A program made the position numbers and the translations under genes. DNA of 64,000 nt, taken from contig DYHH01000001.1 of assembly GCA_020724265.1 (NCBI GenBank), positions 68,674 through 132,673 of the forward strand, in the 5' to 3' direction. Positions 2,019-64,000 of this stretch are shown in pieces. A model generated the notes under the pieces. That model made no database searches. It was not told the DNA's origin and was given only the letters and a program-made list of their open reading frames with translations. Position 1 is the first letter of the stretch. The number at the start of each line of letters is the position of its first letter. This DNA comes from Melioribacter roseus. GTDB lineage: Bacteria > Bacteroidota > Ignavibacteria > Ignavibacteriales > Melioribacteraceae.

Positions 2019-4357
2019 TATCAAAAAAATCCACAGAGCAATTAGAATTTGGAAAAGTATTAGAGCAAATTTCCAATTACACTTATACCGAATTAGGCAA
2101 AGAGAGCGTTCTTCAAATAAAACCATTTAACAATGTTGAAGAAGCAGTTAATCAAGGGGATTTGGTAACCGAGGCAAAAGAAGTATTAATTAATACGGAT
2201 ATTCCCCCATTTGAGTATTTGCCGGATATTTCAGAAGCAATTAAACGAACTAAAGTCGAGGGAGTTTTTCTGAATGTCAAAGATATTCTAGATATTCTAA
2301 AACTTGCAAAGCTTTCAAGAACTTTATTCAGTTTTTTCAAAGAAAAAGATTTTGTTCCGTTATTAGTTAACCTAACACGTAATTTATTTGTTGATAAAGT
2401 TTTTGAACATTACTTCACAAAAGTGTTTACCGAAAGCGGAGAGATAAGAGATAATGCTTCTCAAAAGTTAAATGAAATCAGAAAAGAGATTAACGATAAA
2501 AGCGAACAATTAAGAAAACTCGTTAACAGGATTCTAAAAAAATATTCAGAATCTTATCTTGTTCAAGAAGAGTATATAACACTGCGAGAAGGCAGAATTG
2601 TAATTCCAGTTAAGGCAGAACACAAAAGACATGTTAAAGGTTTTATTCACTCCGAATCTCAAACCGGTCAGACAGTTTATATCGAGCCGGAAGAAACACT
2701 TGAACTCAACAATGAAATTCTATCTCTCAAATTTGCGGAGCAAAGAGAAATTAAAAAGATATTAAGGAATCTCACTCTAAAAATATCCGAATACTCTAAC
2801 AACCTTTTGGATAGTTTACAGATTATTACCGAACTAGATAAAATTTTTGCAAATGCGAGATATTCGATAGAAATAATAGGATCTTTTCCATCAGTTATAA
2901 ATAATAAAGCACTTCAAATAATTGATGCGAGGCACCCTCAATTATTGAAAAAATTTGGAAGAGAAAATACAGTCCCACTTAACTTAAAATTGGAAAATGA
3001 TAATTTAATTTTAATCACCGGACCAAACGCCGGGGGTAAAACCGTTGTTCTCAAAACTGTCGGTTTGCTTTCTATGATGGTTGCAAGCGGTATTCATATA
3101 CCGGCAGATCCGGATTCGAATTTTTATTTCTTTGAGAAAATACTTATTGATATGGGAGATGAACAATCAATTGATAATGATCTCAGTACTTTTAGTTCCC
3201 ATTTATCAAATATAAAATCAATTCTGAATACAACTGATAAAAGTTCACTAGTATTACTTGATGAAATTGGAACCGGTACAGACCCGGTAGAAGGAGCTGC
3301 GCTTGCTATTGCAATTTTAATCCAATTGCAGAGAAAAAATTCAATTGTTTTTGCTACTACTCATCATGGCTCGGTAAAATTAGCCGCAAATGATTTACCG
3401 GGATTTCAAAATGCTTCAATGGAATTTGACCAGGAACAACTAAAACCTACATACAAGTTTTCACAAGGATTACCGGGTTCAAGTTATGCTTTTGAGATAG
3501 CCGAAAGATTGGGATATGATAAAGATTTTGTAAGTCTTGCCGGTAATTATCTCGATAGCGATAAAAATAAAATTGAAAAATTCTTAACCGATCTAGAACA
3601 GAAATCAAAAAAATATAAAACTAAACTTGATGAGATCGAAAGAGAAAATGTGCGGTTAAAAGGATTAACAAATTTGTATCAAGAAAAAATTACCAAACTT
3701 GAGCAGCAAAAATCTCAAATATTAACAAAGGCTCAGCAAGACGCCGAAATTTATTTGAAAGACGTTAATAAGAAAATTGAAAATGCAATAAAACACATCC
3801 GTGAATCAAATGCAGCAAAAGAAGTTGTAAGAGAAGAAAGAAAACAAATTGAAGAAATAAAAAAGGTGCAAACAAAACTTAAACAAGAAAGAGAAATAGA
3901 AACTATCAACGGTGAAGTAAAAGTAAATACTTATGCAAAAGTAAAAGGAACCGAAACTATTGGATTAGTAAAAGAACTTAATAAAGGAAAAAATAAAGCA
4001 ACTCTGCAGGCAGGCAGTCTAAAAATTCAAGTAAAATATTCTGATTTAATTCCGTCGGCAGCAAATAAATTCGAAGAAAAATCGTATATTAAGCCACAAT
4101 ATCAGTTATTATTGGAAAGCGAACGACTCGATATCAGAGGAGAACTACCCGAAGAGGCTGAGTTCAAAGTTATTAAATTTATTGATGATGCTTTTGCTGC
4201 AAATTCTTCAAAAATTGAAATTTTGCACGGTAAAGGTACAGGTGCTTTAAAGAAAACTGTGCACGATGTCCTAAAACAACATGATCATGTTAAGGATTTT
4301 TACTTTGCAAAAATTGAATTTGGGGGAGATGGGATAACAATCGTTGAGTTAGAATAG
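2015..4357 (+). CDS. mutS2: Endonuclease MutS2 / ribosome-collision factor
   Basis: A 780-residue MutS2: MutS-like core and lever, ABC ATPase with Walker A GPNAGGKT at 336-343 and Walker B LVLLDEIGTGTDP near 410-421, a long coiled coil at about 515-630, a KOW-like segment, and a C-terminal Smr domain (about 705-780) with LDIRGE and HGKGTGAL motifs. It lacks the mismatch-recognition domain of MutS1. In other bacteria MutS2 suppresses homologous recombination, and in Bacillus it has been reported to split collided ribosomes. An RqcH-type protein, which acts on the split 50S product, is also in this window (60892). It overlaps cvpA by four bases and abuts accC with no gap. Confidence 0.96.
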   Translation: MISKKSTEQLEFGKVLEQISNYTYTELGKESVLQIKPFNNVEEAVNQGDLVTEAKEVLINTDIPPFEYLPDISEAIKRTKVEGVFLNVKDILDILKLAKLSRTLFSFFKEKDFVPLLVNLTRNLFVDKVFEHYFTKVFTESGEIRDNASQKLNEIRKEINDKSEQLRKLVNRILKKYSESYLVQEEYITLREGRIVIPVKAEHKRHVKGFIHSESQTGQTVYIEPEETLELNNEILSLKFAEQREIKKILRNLTLKISEYSNNLLDSLQIITELDKIFANARYSIEIIGSFPSVINNKALQIIDARHPQLLKKFGRENTVPLNLKLENDNLILITGPNAGGKTVVLKTVGLLSMMVASGIHIPADPDSNFYFFEKILIDMGDEQSIDNDLSTFSSHLSNIKSILNTTDKSSLVLLDEIGTGTDPVEGAALAIAILIQLQRKNSIVFATTHHGSVKLAANDLPGFQNASMEFDQEQLKPTYKFSQGLPGSSYAFEIAERLGYDKDFVSLAGNYLDSDKNKIEKFLTDLEQKSKKYKTKLDEIERENVRLKGLTNLYQEKITKLEQQKSQILTKAQQDAEIYLKDVNKKIENAIKHIRESNAAKEVVREERKQIEEIKKVQTKLKQEREIETINGEVKVNTYAKVKGTETIGLVKELNKGKNKATLQAGSLKIQVKYSDLIPSAANKFEEKSYIKPQYQLLLESERLDIRGELPEEAEFKVIKFIDDAFAANSSKIEILHGKGTGALKKTVHDVLKQHDHVKDFYFAKIEFGGDGITIVELE

Positions 4358-59582: not shown

Positions 59583-60815
59583 ATGAAATATCCTATTTGT
59601 TTGTTTGAAGACAATAAATACAGCAATTTTTTACCACTTACATATTTTAGACCTGTTTACGATTTGCGGTGTGGTATTCTAACACTTCGTGAAAAAGTTT
59701 TACGATTATTACAACCGGGTAAATTGATATTACATACAAGAAAGTATCTTAATAATTTTATAAGAGAAGAAAATAAAAATCATGTTGTAAATAATTTTGT
59801 TGATGACAAGATTTGGTTCATTAATGGAAGACTTAAGTTGTCGGTAGATTTAGTTGAGATATTTTCGCATGCTAAAACTGATGAATTGTTTTTATCAAAA
59901 AATGAAATTGCCGCCGCTCTTTTATCTCAAAAATCTATTCAAATATTACTTAAAAATAATAAAGATATTCTAACTGATTTTTCGGATTTAGATTGCAAGC
60001 AAACCGAAATTGATGCATATCTGTATGAGTATCCTTGGCATTTAATTCAGAATAACGGTGAAGAAATAGTTAATGATATCGAACTTATCTCTCCGCAATT
60101 TAATAAAGTTGAATATCCCGGAGTTCACCTACTCAACAAAGTGAATATTTATATCGGAGAAAACGTATTAATAAAACCAAATGTTGTGCTCGATGCTTCC
60201 GAAGGACCAATTTATATTGACGATGCAGTAACGATATTTCCGAACACTTATATTGTTGGTCCGAGTTACATCGGTAAAAAGTCAATAGTAAAAGCTAACT
60301 CACAAATTTATAATGATACAACGATAGGACCCGTCTGCAAAGTCGGCGGTGAAATAGAAAATAGTATAATTCACTCATACTCAAACAAGCAGCACGAGGG
60401 ATTTCTCGGTCATGCTTATTTAGGTTCGTGGATAAATATCGGAGCAAGTTCAAATAACTCTGATCTTAAAAATGATTACAGCAAAATTAAAGTCATGCTT
60501 AACGGTCAGGAAGTTGATACCGGCACAAATTTTATGGGATTGATTATGGGTGATCATTCGAAATGTGCCATTAATACTGCATTTAATACCGGAACTATAA
60601 TTGGTGTTTCTTGCAATATTTATGGAAGTGGATTCCCACCAAAATATATTCCCTCGTTTAGCTGGGGTGGTGCCGATGGATTTAGAGAATATCATTTAAG
60701 AAAAGCAATTGAAGTCGCCAAAATCGTTAAGTCAAGACGAAATATAACTATGAGCGTTAATGATTTGGAATTATTCAAATCCGTTTTTGATTTAACGCAG
60801 AACGAAAGAAAATAA
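59583..60815 (+). CDS. GlmU-like putative sugar nucleotidyltransferase
   Basis: A 410-residue protein of the GlmU-like family common in Bacteroidota. The N-terminal part (about 1-190) has ICLFEDNKYSNFLPLTYFRPVYDLRCGILTLREK but not the classic G-x-G-T/S-R-P nucleotide loop. The C-terminal half (about 195-390) is a left-handed beta-helix with GPSYIGKKSIVKANSQIYN and FLGHAYLGSWINIGASSNNSDLKNDYS, as in GlmU acetyltransferase domains. Substrate and activity are unproven. rqcH follows after 76 bases. Confidence 0.85.
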   Translation: MKYPICLFEDNKYSNFLPLTYFRPVYDLRCGILTLREKVLRLLQPGKLILHTRKYLNNFIREENKNHVVNNFVDDKIWFINGRLKLSVDLVEIFSHAKTDELFLSKNEIAAALLSQKSIQILLKNNKDILTDFSDLDCKQTEIDAYLYEYPWHLIQNNGEEIVNDIELISPQFNKVEYPGVHLLNKVNIYIGENVLIKPNVVLDASEGPIYIDDAVTIFPNTYIVGPSYIGKKSIVKANSQIYNDTTIGPVCKVGGEIENSIIHSYSNKQHEGFLGHAYLGSWINIGASSNNSDLKNDYSKIKVMLNGQEVDTGTNFMGLIMGDHSKCAINTAFNTGTIIGVSCNIYGSGFPPKYIPSFSWGGADGFREYHLRKAIEVAKIVKSRRNITMSVNDLELFKSVFDLTQNERK

Positions 60816-60891: not shown

Positions 60892-62514
60892 ATGTATAAA
60901 AACTACTTCTATCTAAATCGTGCTGTAATTGAATTAAGAGACAAATTAATCGGATCAAATATTTATGAAGTTTTCACTCAAGAAAAGGAAACTCTGTACT
61001 TTCATATTCCAATCGAAGAAAATGAATATCGACATTTAGTTGTTTCAATTAACCAATCCGAACCTTATTTAATTATTAAAGATGAACATAGAAAAGCACG
61101 AAAGAATGTGGTTAACTTTTTTAAAGAATTACTGCCGGCTAAAATCGAAAATATTCAAATTGCTTTGAGTGATAGAATAATAAAGATTGTCTGCGATAAT
61201 TTTTACCTACTAATTCCGATAAGAGGAACTATTTCTAATATGATTGCAATGCCGGTAATTGGAGAACCAGAATTTTTTAGAAAGGTTAAGAGAATTGATG
61301 AAGATGAACTCATCTCCGATTTAATTTCACATAACTATAATGATTCATTTAATTTGCCGAAAATCAGCAGTGATATACATAATTTGGATGAACTTAAGAA
61401 AACATTTTCCTATTTAACAAAAGATATTCTAAATGAATTAAAAGCTCGAACTTCGTCTAATGATTTCATTCAGCAAAAAGAAATACTGATGAGAATACTC
61501 TCACAAATAAATAACGATCCTATTCAAATATTTTATTCTAATGATCTTAATAGATATGTGTTTGTGCCGTCCGGATTTATTTCTCTTTCAAGAGATTCTG
61601 AAGTTTTTGAATATGATAATTATCAAGATGCATTGCTGAAATTACTAGCAGTAGGTAACAAGCTTTCTCGCGAACAAAGATTAAAAAAGGAAATATCTAA
61701 ATATCTTGAAAAAGAATTGTCAATCTACTCGAATAAACTTAATAGTCTGAAGCGAAGAGTTGATGAAGGATCTAAAGAAGAGTTGTATAGAAAATATGCG
61801 GATGTACTGCTTTCTAATCTATACAAAATTAAAAAAGGAATGAAAGAAATTGTATTAGATGATTTCACATCTTCTCGGACTTTTAAAATTCCTTTGAATG
61901 ATAAATTCACTTCAAAACAGAATGTAGATTATTATTACGATAAAGCTCGCGGTGAAAAGATTAATTACTCCAAATCATTAGAGTTGTATCAATCTGCAAA
62001 ATCTTCTTACGATATTCTACTTGAACTTCAAAAGGAATTTGAAAATTGTGATGACCTTTCTAAATTAATTTCGTTAAAAGAAAAACTTGGCTTAAAGGAT
62101 GTGAAAGTGATTGAGAAAAATGAACCACAAATGAAATTCCGGCATTTCATTATCGAAAATAAATATCATGTATTTGTCGGGCGCGACAGTAAAAGCAATG
62201 ATTATCTTTCAACAAAATTTGCAAAACAAAATGATTATTGGTTTCATGCACGCGGTTATGCCGGCTCACACGTGCTTCTTAGAGTTGACAATCCCAAGGA
62301 AGGTGTACCAAAAAATATTATAAAAAATGCCGCGTCAATTGCCGCATATTTCAGCAAAGCTAAAACTGCCGGAACCGCACCGGTCGCATATACATTTGCT
62401 AAATTTGTTACAAAACGCAAAGGTATGGAGCCGGGTAAAGTTATGATGCAAAAAGAGAATGTGTTGCTGGTTAAACCTGAAATCCCTAATAATTCAATCC
62501 AAGTTGAAGATTGA
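60892..62514 (+). CDS. rqcH: NFACT-family ribosome quality-control protein (RqcH-like)
   Basis: A 540-residue protein: NFACT-N (about 5-200), a helical coiled-coil region (about 270-410), and a C-terminal NFACT-R domain (about 425-535) with FVGRDSKSNDYLSTKFAKQNDYWFHA and GSHVLLR. Bacterial RqcH binds 50S subunits blocked by peptidyl-tRNA and adds Ala tails with tRNA-Ala. The family also includes fibronectin-binding FbpA proteins. Tail addition is inferred from homology. MutS2 in the same window may act upstream of it. Confidence 0.9.
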   Translation: MYKNYFYLNRAVIELRDKLIGSNIYEVFTQEKETLYFHIPIEENEYRHLVVSINQSEPYLIIKDEHRKARKNVVNFFKELLPAKIENIQIALSDRIIKIVCDNFYLLIPIRGTISNMIAMPVIGEPEFFRKVKRIDEDELISDLISHNYNDSFNLPKISSDIHNLDELKKTFSYLTKDILNELKARTSSNDFIQQKEILMRILSQINNDPIQIFYSNDLNRYVFVPSGFISLSRDSEVFEYDNYQDALLKLLAVGNKLSREQRLKKEISKYLEKELSIYSNKLNSLKRRVDEGSKEELYRKYADVLLSNLYKIKKGMKEIVLDDFTSSRTFKIPLNDKFTSKQNVDYYYDKARGEKINYSKSLELYQSAKSSYDILLELQKEFENCDDLSKLISLKEKLGLKDVKVIEKNEPQMKFRHFIIENKYHVFVGRDSKSNDYLSTKFAKQNDYWFHARGYAGSHVLLRVDNPKEGVPKNIIKNAASIAAYFSKAKTAGTAPVAYTFAKFVTKRKGMEPGKVMMQKENVLLVKPEIPNNSIQVED

Positions 62515-62542
62515 CAGAAAAATTACCGTAATTTGTTTTGTA

Positions 62543-62614
62543 AAGCGACGATCCTTCGTCGCTTACCCTAACTTCTTGTTAACTCCAAAGCAAGTGACCA
62601 AAGTCGTCAGACTT
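62543..62614. repeat. Short hairpin repeats between rqcH and the hip locus
   Basis: Two inverted repeats fall in the 127-base gap: AAGCGACGA-TCCT-TCGTCGCTT (62543-62564, nine perfect pairs) and AAGTC-GTCA-GACTT (62601-62614), the latter followed by CGACTCAACGAGATGGTCGA. They are more GC-rich than the surroundings and have no T-run, so they are not standard terminators. Sequences of this kind (GACTTCGACTC-type) recur as dispersed intergenic repeats in some Bacteroidota genomes, from memory. Confidence 0.5.
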
Positions 62615-62641
62615 CGACTCAACGAGATGGTCGATTTACAA

Positions 62642-63565
62642 TTAGAAGATTCTTTTTTTACGAATTGTTAATAATGAAGAAAAACTTTCTTTTTTTTCTT
62701 CCGAAAGAAAACTGATATCAATCAACCTTTCCCATTTTTCAAAAACTGCTGAAAACTTTTCCAAGCTTTTTTGTATAACTTTTTCAGTTAATCCGCACAC
62801 TTCTTTGCCGAAATAATCGACTAAGTCAGATTTGCTTAAATTATTTTTTCTTCCTCTTATCGGTAAAGCAATTTCTTCTTGTGCATTTTTCAGGACAATA
62901 CTAGTATTTACCAAATCGTAGAATGGGGAGAATTCTATCTTGTCGTCTTTTCTAATTAGTGAAAAGTTTTTTAAATGCTGATCCTCATTACCGATTAGAA
63001 AATTGAATAAAGTTAACTCAAACAATTTTAGATTTTCCACCAAAGGAAAGGTGCAAAACTGATCGACAACTTGCACAACTTTTTCCATACTTGATTTGTA
63101 CTTTGTATTGCGTGAAGCACCGGATAATTGTGCAAAATCTTCAACTGCAATTTTTTTGTGTCTTCCTGTTCTGTCAAATCTTTTAACGAAGTAAGTAAGT
63201 GAATTATCTTTTCCGTATATCATTCCGTGTAAAGGAATGTTAAACCCAACTGTTTCTGCAAGACGCATTGTTAAATCTTCATTTTGCGGTACTTCTTCGT
63301 AAATATCGTTAGGAGGTTTAAAAATATATAGTCCTTTTTTATCTACAATTTCAAACTTACTTTCACCCACATTTAAAAATGCGCTTAACTTTGGCTGCAC
63401 ACCCTGGATTGACATCTTTGGCATTCTAGATACTGTTTCTTTTAGCAGCTCTTCTTTTGTATAGTTCAGATCATTTAATTTATCTAAATTTCTGGAGAGC
63501 AACTTTAATCCACTGTTTGAGTATCTATTTTTAGTTTTTTCGTATGTGATGGGACAGCGGTTCAT
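62642..63565 (-). CDS. hipT: HipT-like Ser/Thr kinase toxin (HipA C-terminal domain)
   Basis: A 307-residue kinase, shorter than E. coli HipA (440) because the N-subdomain is a separate gene. The Gly-rich loop is MSIQGVQPKL with Ser52-Ile53-Gln54; ATP-side IFKPP holds Lys83; YFVKRFDR follows. The catalytic loop is GNEDQHLKN (Asp195, Asn200), and the metal Asp217 is in SPFYDLVN. HipT of E. coli O127 phosphorylates tryptophanyl-tRNA synthetase. It overlaps hipS by four bases; HipS-dependent neutralisation is inferred from the family. Confidence 0.85.
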   Translation of the reverse strand: MNRCPITYEKTKNRYSNSGLKLLSRNLDKLNDLNYTKEELLKETVSRMPKMSIQGVQPKLSAFLNVGESKFEIVDKKGLYIFKPPNDIYEEVPQNEDLTMRLAETVGFNIPLHGMIYGKDNSLTYFVKRFDRTGRHKKIAVEDFAQLSGASRNTKYKSSMEKVVQVVDQFCTFPLVENLKLFELTLFNFLIGNEDQHLKNFSLIRKDDKIEFSPFYDLVNTSIVLKNAQEEIALPIRGRKNNLSKSDLVDYFGKEVCGLTEKVIQKSLEKFSAVFEKWERLIDISFLSEEKKESFSSLLTIRKKRIF

Positions 63566-63873
63566 TTCAATTCCTCAACAGTAACAGAACCGACTAAGTC
63601 CTCACCAACAAATATTAGCTGTGAAAAAAGATCATTAGAATCAATTTTCGCCGTACGTAATAAATTCTCCAGCATTATACCTTCAGGCAAAAGACCTTCA
63701 AAAAAAGGGGGGAAAGCATCGAATGAGAATTCTTTTTGGTTAACCGGCATAGTTAATGAAACCGGCTTACCCTCATAATCTTCAAAATAGATGAACCTAT
63801 ATTCATTGTTCATTTTTAACTCAATCAATTCTCCGGCGGGTTTGCCGTAATTATATATTTTAGCTCTCCTCAT
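63562..63873 (-). CDS. hipS: HipS-like protein (stand-alone HipA N-subdomain)
   Basis: A 103-residue protein corresponding to HipA N-subdomain 1: AKIYNYGKPAGELIEL, FIYFEDYEGKPVSLTMPV, then FPPFFEGLLPEGIMLENLL, and LFSQLIFVGEDLVGSVTVEEL. In HipBST systems HipS, not HipB, is the main antitoxin. It is encoded in its own frame with clean overlaps (14 bases with hipB, four with hipT), so it is not a frameshift of a single hipA. Confidence 0.85.
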   Translation of the reverse strand: MRRAKIYNYGKPAGELIELKMNNEYRFIYFEDYEGKPVSLTMPVNQKEFSFDAFPPFFEGLLPEGIMLENLLRTAKIDSNDLFSQLIFVGEDLVGSVTVEELK

Positions 63874-64000
63874 TTATTGCTTGGTCTCCGTCAATTAGTC
63901 GGCTTTCAATTTTTAGTTTTATGTTGAGTGCTTTCAGAACTTTAAGCAGCGAATTAAACTGAACTGTCTCTTTACCTTTTTCAATATCAAAAATAACCGT
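63860..64000 (-). CDS. hipB: HipB-like DNA-binding protein, 5' part outside the window
   Basis: Only the last 46 codons are in view: the minus strand reads TVIFDIEKGKETVQFNSLLKVL... and ends in DGDQAINEES before TAA at 63860-63862. This is the C-terminal part of the XRE-type helix-turn-helix of HipB (family pattern: S-x-IE-x-GK-x-TV-x-F-x-TL-x-x-x-L-x-AL). It lies 5' of hipS and overlaps it by 14 bases. HipB probably represses the operon; the promoter is beyond the window. Confidence 0.8.
   Translation of the reverse strand, partial: TVIFDIEKGKETVQFNSLLKVLKALNIKLKIESRLIDGDQAINEES

Follow-up and report, generated by a model that had tools for sequence, protein, structure and literature searches.

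The window analysed here is a stretch of 64,000 nucleotides (G000:C56:68674-132673), and the parent contig runs on past its end. A HipBST module, transcribed in the order hipB, hipS, hipT, lies on the minus strand at the window's right end. The hipT gene (62642..63565, minus strand) is an open reading frame of 307 codons for a predicted Ser/Thr kinase toxin, which matches the Pfam profile HipA_C at 2e-44 and the HipT of Legionella pneumophila, HipT(Lp) (8ezr), with 384 bits. Ahead of it stands hipS (63562..63873, minus strand), encoding a 103-aa putative antitoxin homologous to N-subdomain 1 of HipA (Couple_hipA, 4.1e-21; 126.5 bits to HipS(Lp)). The window also takes in the 3′ part of hipB (63860..64000, minus strand), a frame for a Cro-like HTH repressor that is open at the window end; extension past position 64000 yielded the complete gene of 76 codons in the parent contig (L002:3534-3764, minus strand; HTH_3, 5.3e-12), as anticipated by an earlier note on this DNA, which had placed a HipB-like HTH gene before hipS and hipT. 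The hipS and hipT frames overlap by 4 bp (ATGA) and those of hipB and hipS by 14 bp, so that the description, in the same note, of HipA as split into overlapping genes of 103 and 307 residues is confirmed by the reading frames. The HipA_C and Couple_hipA matches are far beyond chance, and profile and structure-sequence matches agree that HipT consists of the HipA_C kinase without N-subdomain 1, whereas HipS is that very subdomain. No HipA_C match other than HipT was found in the source genome. A scan for promoter-like sequences returned 12 hits against 7.0 expected, and one for terminator-like sequences returned 1 against 1.1; neither was informative. The neighbouring genes encode an NFACT-domain protein (60892-62514) and, at 59583-60815, a sugar nucleotidyltransferase that also matches a hexapeptide repeat weakly.

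Alignment shows that HipT possesses the catalytic Asp195 and Asn200 and the Mg-site Asp217, which the earlier note had correctly listed as intact, and also retains Lys59, Lys83, and His197. Its Gly-rich loop reads MSIQG, with Ser52-Ile53-Gln54, and HipS carries Ile66-Met67 where the HipS of Escherichia coli O127 has Trp65.

The inserted segment and its distribution

Compared with two genomes of the same genus, G002 and G003, the site of the module contains 2,003 unaligned bp (L002:2193-4195) as opposed to 41 bp, between aligned flanks that hold the NFACT gene and a short-chain dehydrogenase gene. The part of this ~2.0-kb segment that falls in the window spans 62519..64000, with edges uncertain by a few bases, and its only sizeable frames are hipB, hipS, and hipT. 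The segment is bordered by direct copies of a two-hairpin repeat. The downstream copy (62538..62601, minus strand) is 94% identical over 64 bp to the copy upstream of hipB, located within G000:C56:133089-133189, the query of the repeat search, and the fold z-scores of the two are -5.3 and -6.0. The repeat search returned 11 rows, which correspond to 7 distinct genomic places, the downstream copy being the best match of the upstream query. The source genome carries two Y1_Tnp genes. Given the empty site in the sister genomes, the direct copies at the borders, and the presence in G001 of repeat copies beside the same NFACT gene, the data fit arrival of the module by recombination at, or mobilisation with, the hairpin repeats.

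At E <= 1e-20, HipT-like matches were found in 79 of 395 genomes of the phylum (own included). The search among relatives, which covered 39 genomes with the window's own, gave matches at E <= 0.001 in 16 of them. No tripartite match was found in the three same-genus genomes (80-99% complete): one is without any match and two have weak matches to long HipA-like frames. Records named Melioribacteraceae supply the nearest relatives (77-78% identity), and these two sequences recur in genomes of the family to which the window belongs (G147, G341). Among plasmid records, 561 of 72,556 match, all below 60% identity and 42 over most of the query, the best match (56.6%) coming from a Legionella adelaidensis plasmid. 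A search for viruses or phages that carry the module found none: in viral_contigs, neither of the 2 pattern matches encodes a relative, and there is one weak match among 50,697 phage records. The earlier remark that such systems are little studied outside proteobacteria is fair as regards experiments. By contrast, their distribution has been published, PMC10653801 describing HipBST(Lp) homologs as widespread in the FCB group, and the 79 phylum genomes with matches point the same way. The searched main text of PMC8262856 contains no occurrence of Ignavibacteri together with HipA and toxin-antitoxin.

To assess the conservation of gene order, 105 distinct HipT-like loci were compared, 65 from a first set and 40 added later. 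The first set comprised 71 loci, including copies of L004 and L003 (L033, L034, L091) and three full-length HipA-like loci that served as outgroup only (L029, L030, L085); left out were L001 and L016, which are the window's locus again, L031 and L032, which are transposase matches, L056-L071, which are loci of two neighbour genes, and L092-L094, which are sister stretches. The phylum matches outside the locus set include G153:C299, G311:C134, G215:C92, and G367:C14. The order hipB-hipS-hipT is found in 101 of the 105 loci, including 40/40 of the later set, and the complete loci are divided among three clades of 28 (window's own included), 49, and 24. These 101 include L129, with a broken hipT frame, and L011, in which HipT is cut by a contig edge. 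The four incomplete loci are L007, which lacks hipB at a contig edge and was retained in the tree and the residue counts, and L025, L027, and L028, with a partial or stop-bearing HipT and with neither HipS nor HipB found.

That the module is kept as selfish mobile cargo or to defend against phages, rather than for physiology, a scenario compatible with the mechanism favoured below, which concerns what the proteins do, appears to us possible but rather doubtful. This scenario accords with the patchy distribution, as seen in the lack of a tripartite match in the same genus and the empty site in two genomes, with the direct repeats at the borders, with the relatives on plasmids, and with the partial similarity that PADLOC detects between HipT and PDC-M03A, a candidate-defence model (43.5 bits, 6.6e-12). 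Against it, no relative was confirmed in viral_contigs, the phage records contributed one weak match, and the inserted segment has no sizeable frames beyond the three genes themselves.

Placement among HipBST branches

The closest solved structures are those of the Legionella system. For HipT, the scores are 384 bits with HipT(Lp), 89.5 (2.2e-24) with the HipT of 7ab4, 54 with a further HipA, 4pu5, and at most 34 with the E. coli chains named HipA. HipS reaches 126.5 bits with HipS(Lp), as opposed to 56.8 with O127 HipS and 58.1 with HI_0666, which is uncharacterised. Structures 7ab3 and 7ab4 are those of the HipBST of E. coli O127:H6. A figure legend in PMC10653801 gives 7AB5 as an O127:H6 HipBST structure.

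In the kinase tree of 65 rows, the window's HipT falls into a 28-row clade (support 100/99), separate from a 20-row clade (96/93), a 13-row clade with the SIS loop (100/100), and the four full-length HipA rows (97/97). The root was placed at the midpoint for drawing, and very long branches lead to two of the HipA rows. The rows are those of the first locus set plus the HipA of E. coli K-12, counted within the 65, without the 40 later loci, L011, HipT(Lp), and O127 HipT, and the link of HipT(Lp) and O127 HipT to the clades rests on bit scores. Judging by these scores, the 20-row clade is likewise closer to Legionella than to O127 HipBST, because its member L021 matches HipT(Lp) best (191.7 bits; 47.1 with 7ab4).

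The active-site residues Asp195, Asn200, Asp217, Lys59, Lys83, and His197 are retained in 29/29 rows of the window's branch, 47/49 of the second clade, and 24/24 of the SIS clade. The Gly-rich loop is more variable: among the 29 rows of the window's branch, it reads SIQ in 22, SVQ in 2, SIA in 3, SVG in 1, and SIG in 1. At the position of the O127 Trp, HipS has Trp in 2 of these 29 rows, namely the two with SxG loops, in 48 of the 49 second-clade rows, the exception being L120, and in none of the 24 SIS-clade rows. Thus, the Trp counts differ across the three clades, and the loop motif and the HipS wedge covary by clade, with few independent changes. The SIS clade of our set combines the SIS loop with the absence of Trp, whereas O127 combines SIS with Trp65 (PMC10653801). 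Two rows of the window's branch, L045 and L046, pair up as a deep sister lineage to the SxQ rows; their loops read SVG/SIG, their HipS has Trp, and their promoters show four sites at 72-bp pitch. In the second clade, L120 encodes a HipT without the usual catalytic motif and a HipS without Trp, which perhaps reflects decay of the kinase and relaxation of the antitoxin.

The SIQ loop is a class mark of the branch, given that SIQ/SVQ is present in 24 of the 29 branch rows and that PMC10653801 describes it as the rule in the HipBST(Lp) branch; PMC10627512 likewise names an SIQ group. Hence, the contrast drawn in the earlier note between the SIQ of this HipT and the SIS of O127 HipT holds as far as the letters of the loop are concerned, but O127 was the wrong reference and the meaning that the note gave to SIQ finds no support. 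More generally, the module could have been of the E. coli O127 type, with TrpS phosphorylated, a Trp inserted by HipS, and SIQ representing the loss of the second autophosphorylation site. The gene order and the catalytic residues are alike and HipT matches 7ab4 at 2.2e-24, but both HipT and HipS score far higher with their Legionella counterparts, HipS is without Trp, SIQ/SVQ is usual in the branch, and, in PMC10653801, TrpS did not rescue cells from HipT(Lp). We therefore regard an O127-type module as very improbable. Likewise, TrpS, which the earlier note had in mind as the target of HipT, finds no support in the nearest studied relative and, by analogy, is an unlikely target of the kinase of this module. 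Finally, although HipS and HipT do match the N- and C-terminal parts of HipA, a single hipA split by sequencing error or mutation has next to no probability and is in effect refuted by the conserved split in 101/105 distinct loci, with the branch standing apart from the full-length HipA rows in the tree, the frames open, and the active-site residues in place.

The two checks proposed in the earlier note, on the kinase tree and on a sequencing error, thus came out in favour of a real split, and its assignment of the locus to tripartite HipBST rather than HipBA is borne out by the domain matches, the gene order, and the tree. As judged from sequence, the module is a HipBST of the Legionella branch, HipBST(Lp), and neither HipBA nor a broken hipA.

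The promoter array

Upstream of hipB, just past the window end (L002:3765-3927), are three putative 19-bp sites, at L002:3766-3784, 3837-3855, and 3908-3926 (converted from contig places). These near-palindromic repeats, TTTACCGTCAAGGCAGTAAA, TTTACCGCCTACGCAGTAAT, and TTTACCGTATTAGCAGTATT, stand at -10, -81, and -152 from the hipB start, that is, at a pitch of 71 bp. A search with a 20-letter consensus found at least 3 sites in 25 of 28 branch loci, a count that is partly circular because the consensus was drawn by eye from the sequences of the analysed loci themselves; the exceptions are L039, with no chain, and L003 and L012, with two sites each. The 55 spacings in the branch are 70-73 in 50 cases, 61 in four (both of L008 and both of L035), and 53 in one, and chains of at least 3 sites arise in 0.0007 of shuffled sequences.

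A motif-free self-match analysis gave an excess at lags of 70-73 in the window's branch. For the second clade the excess lay at 40-41, together with 80-82, and for the third at 61, together with 122; shuffled sequences yielded 0.04-0.13 loci per lag. In the third clade, two loci have their best lag at 70-71. Loci below 15/20 at every lag from 30 to 80 number 5/28, 5/49, and 1/24 in the respective clades; other best lags are 45 in L012, 33 in L104, and 32 in L077, and L040 and L084 show ties with 39 and 53. Near copies among the loci (L013/L014; L073-L075) mean that the array counts are not independent.

Only the array is distinctive, and a site taken singly is not, because a reversed control pattern is found nearly as often: a possible HipB regulon elsewhere in the genome was discarded, with 20 matches to the site pattern (at most 1 mismatch) versus 13 for the control. 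Of the four exact matches genome-wide, three lie at two hipB sites and one elsewhere. PMC10653801 describes, for nearly all Legionella species, three operators of 18 nt separated by 53 bp, so the Legionella array is already published; in the literature searched, we found no reports of HipBST pitches of 40-41 or ~61 bp, and none of hipB or toxin-antitoxin operators with a helical turn or helical phasing.

One possible reading is that HipBST promoters are helically phased operator rulers, with clade pitches of about 4, 6, or 7 turns (40-41, 61, and 71 bp) and exceptions about one turn apart, as with 61 in the 71-bp clade and 70-71 in the 61-bp clade. We advance it tentatively, at slightly less than an even chance: perhaps five or six independent events lie behind the one-turn idea, and the ~10.15 bp period was fitted by eye after the data had been seen. 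The textbook DNA helix has 10.5 bp per turn, at which the pitches come to 3.9, 5.8, and 6.8 turns. If the ruler were real, HipB-HipT-HipS complexes on neighbouring sites would share one face of the DNA and might touch or loop it, and their cooperative assembly could read out the ratio of toxin to antitoxin.

Proposed mechanism and comparison with known systems

Taken together, these data make it highly probable that the locus is a module of the HipBST(Lp) branch, gained horizontally by a Melioribacteraceae-like bacterium, in which HipT is a kinase toxin, HipS the antitoxin, and HipB a repressor acting on three sites. The kinase activity, the neutralisation by HipS, and the operator binding by HipB are inferred from solved and tested Legionella relatives that are ~57% identical (56.6% to a Legionella HipT), and the Legionella mechanism is the best guide to this module on account of that similarity. 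HipT, a Ser/Thr kinase, would halt growth by phosphorylating a target, probably other than TrpS. HipS, as a detached HipA N-subdomain, would bind HipT, displace the Gly-rich loop, and block the ATP site, presumably using Ile-Met rather than a Trp wedge. HipB would be a DNA-binding repressor and not the main antitoxin, and probably occupies the three sites ahead of hipB, with HipT and HipS riding along.

The Legionella work (PMC10653801, PMC9325769) shows that HipT is toxic, that HipS neutralises it through P-loop displacement and an ATP block, that HipB binds DNA while HipT bridges HipB and HipS, and that changes of the P-loop Ser54 do not abolish the toxicity of HipT(Lp). Cells were rescued from HipT(Lp) by neither TrpS nor GltX (PMC10653801). 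The published accounts of the O127 P-loop serine disagree: HipT S57A is non-toxic according to PMC10653801, whereas S57A and S57D are still toxic according to PMC9325769.

Within a family branch already in the literature, the module is thus an ordinary case, of a kind described in Legionella and common among Bacteroidota-like bacteria. To the HipBST(Lp) branch it contributes an Ignavibacteria-type representative, and it steers target tests away from TrpS. The regularity of the array is the part most worth testing, and the even-pitched sites offer a way into the question of why three-gene HipBST promoters retain more than one operator at set intervals.

Of the systems compared, HipBA of E. coli K-12 has four sites with uneven centre spacings of 28, 39, and 28, unlike the even pitch of the module; its site motif is TATCC-N8-GGATA. 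In domain content, the K-12 HipA equals HipS plus HipT, but it is the product of a single hipA gene, as opposed to the two genes with a conserved split found here. The K-12 HipB is a Cro-like repressor (PMC8262856), as that of the module appears to be. HipBST of E. coli O127:H6 shares with the module the tripartite order, the HipS antitoxin, and the kinase core, and differs, according to PMC10627512 and PMC10653801, in its SIS loop with two phospho-sites, in HipS Trp65, and in its TrpS target; the O127-type marks, the SxS loop and HipS Trp65, are absent from the module, which has SIQ and Ile66. HipBST(Lp) of L. pneumophila (lpg2368-70; 8ezr, 7vkb) has the same gene order and gene sizes as the module. 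According to PMC10653801, it further shares the SxQ loop and a HipS in which Ile-Met takes the place of the Trp wedge, and its operator pitch adds up to 71 bp, equal to that of the module. The two differ in that hipB and hipS overlap by 14 bp in the module versus 4 bp in HipBST(Lp), and the hipB-proximal site abuts the start codon in the module, whereas it lies 24 nt upstream in HipBST(Lp).
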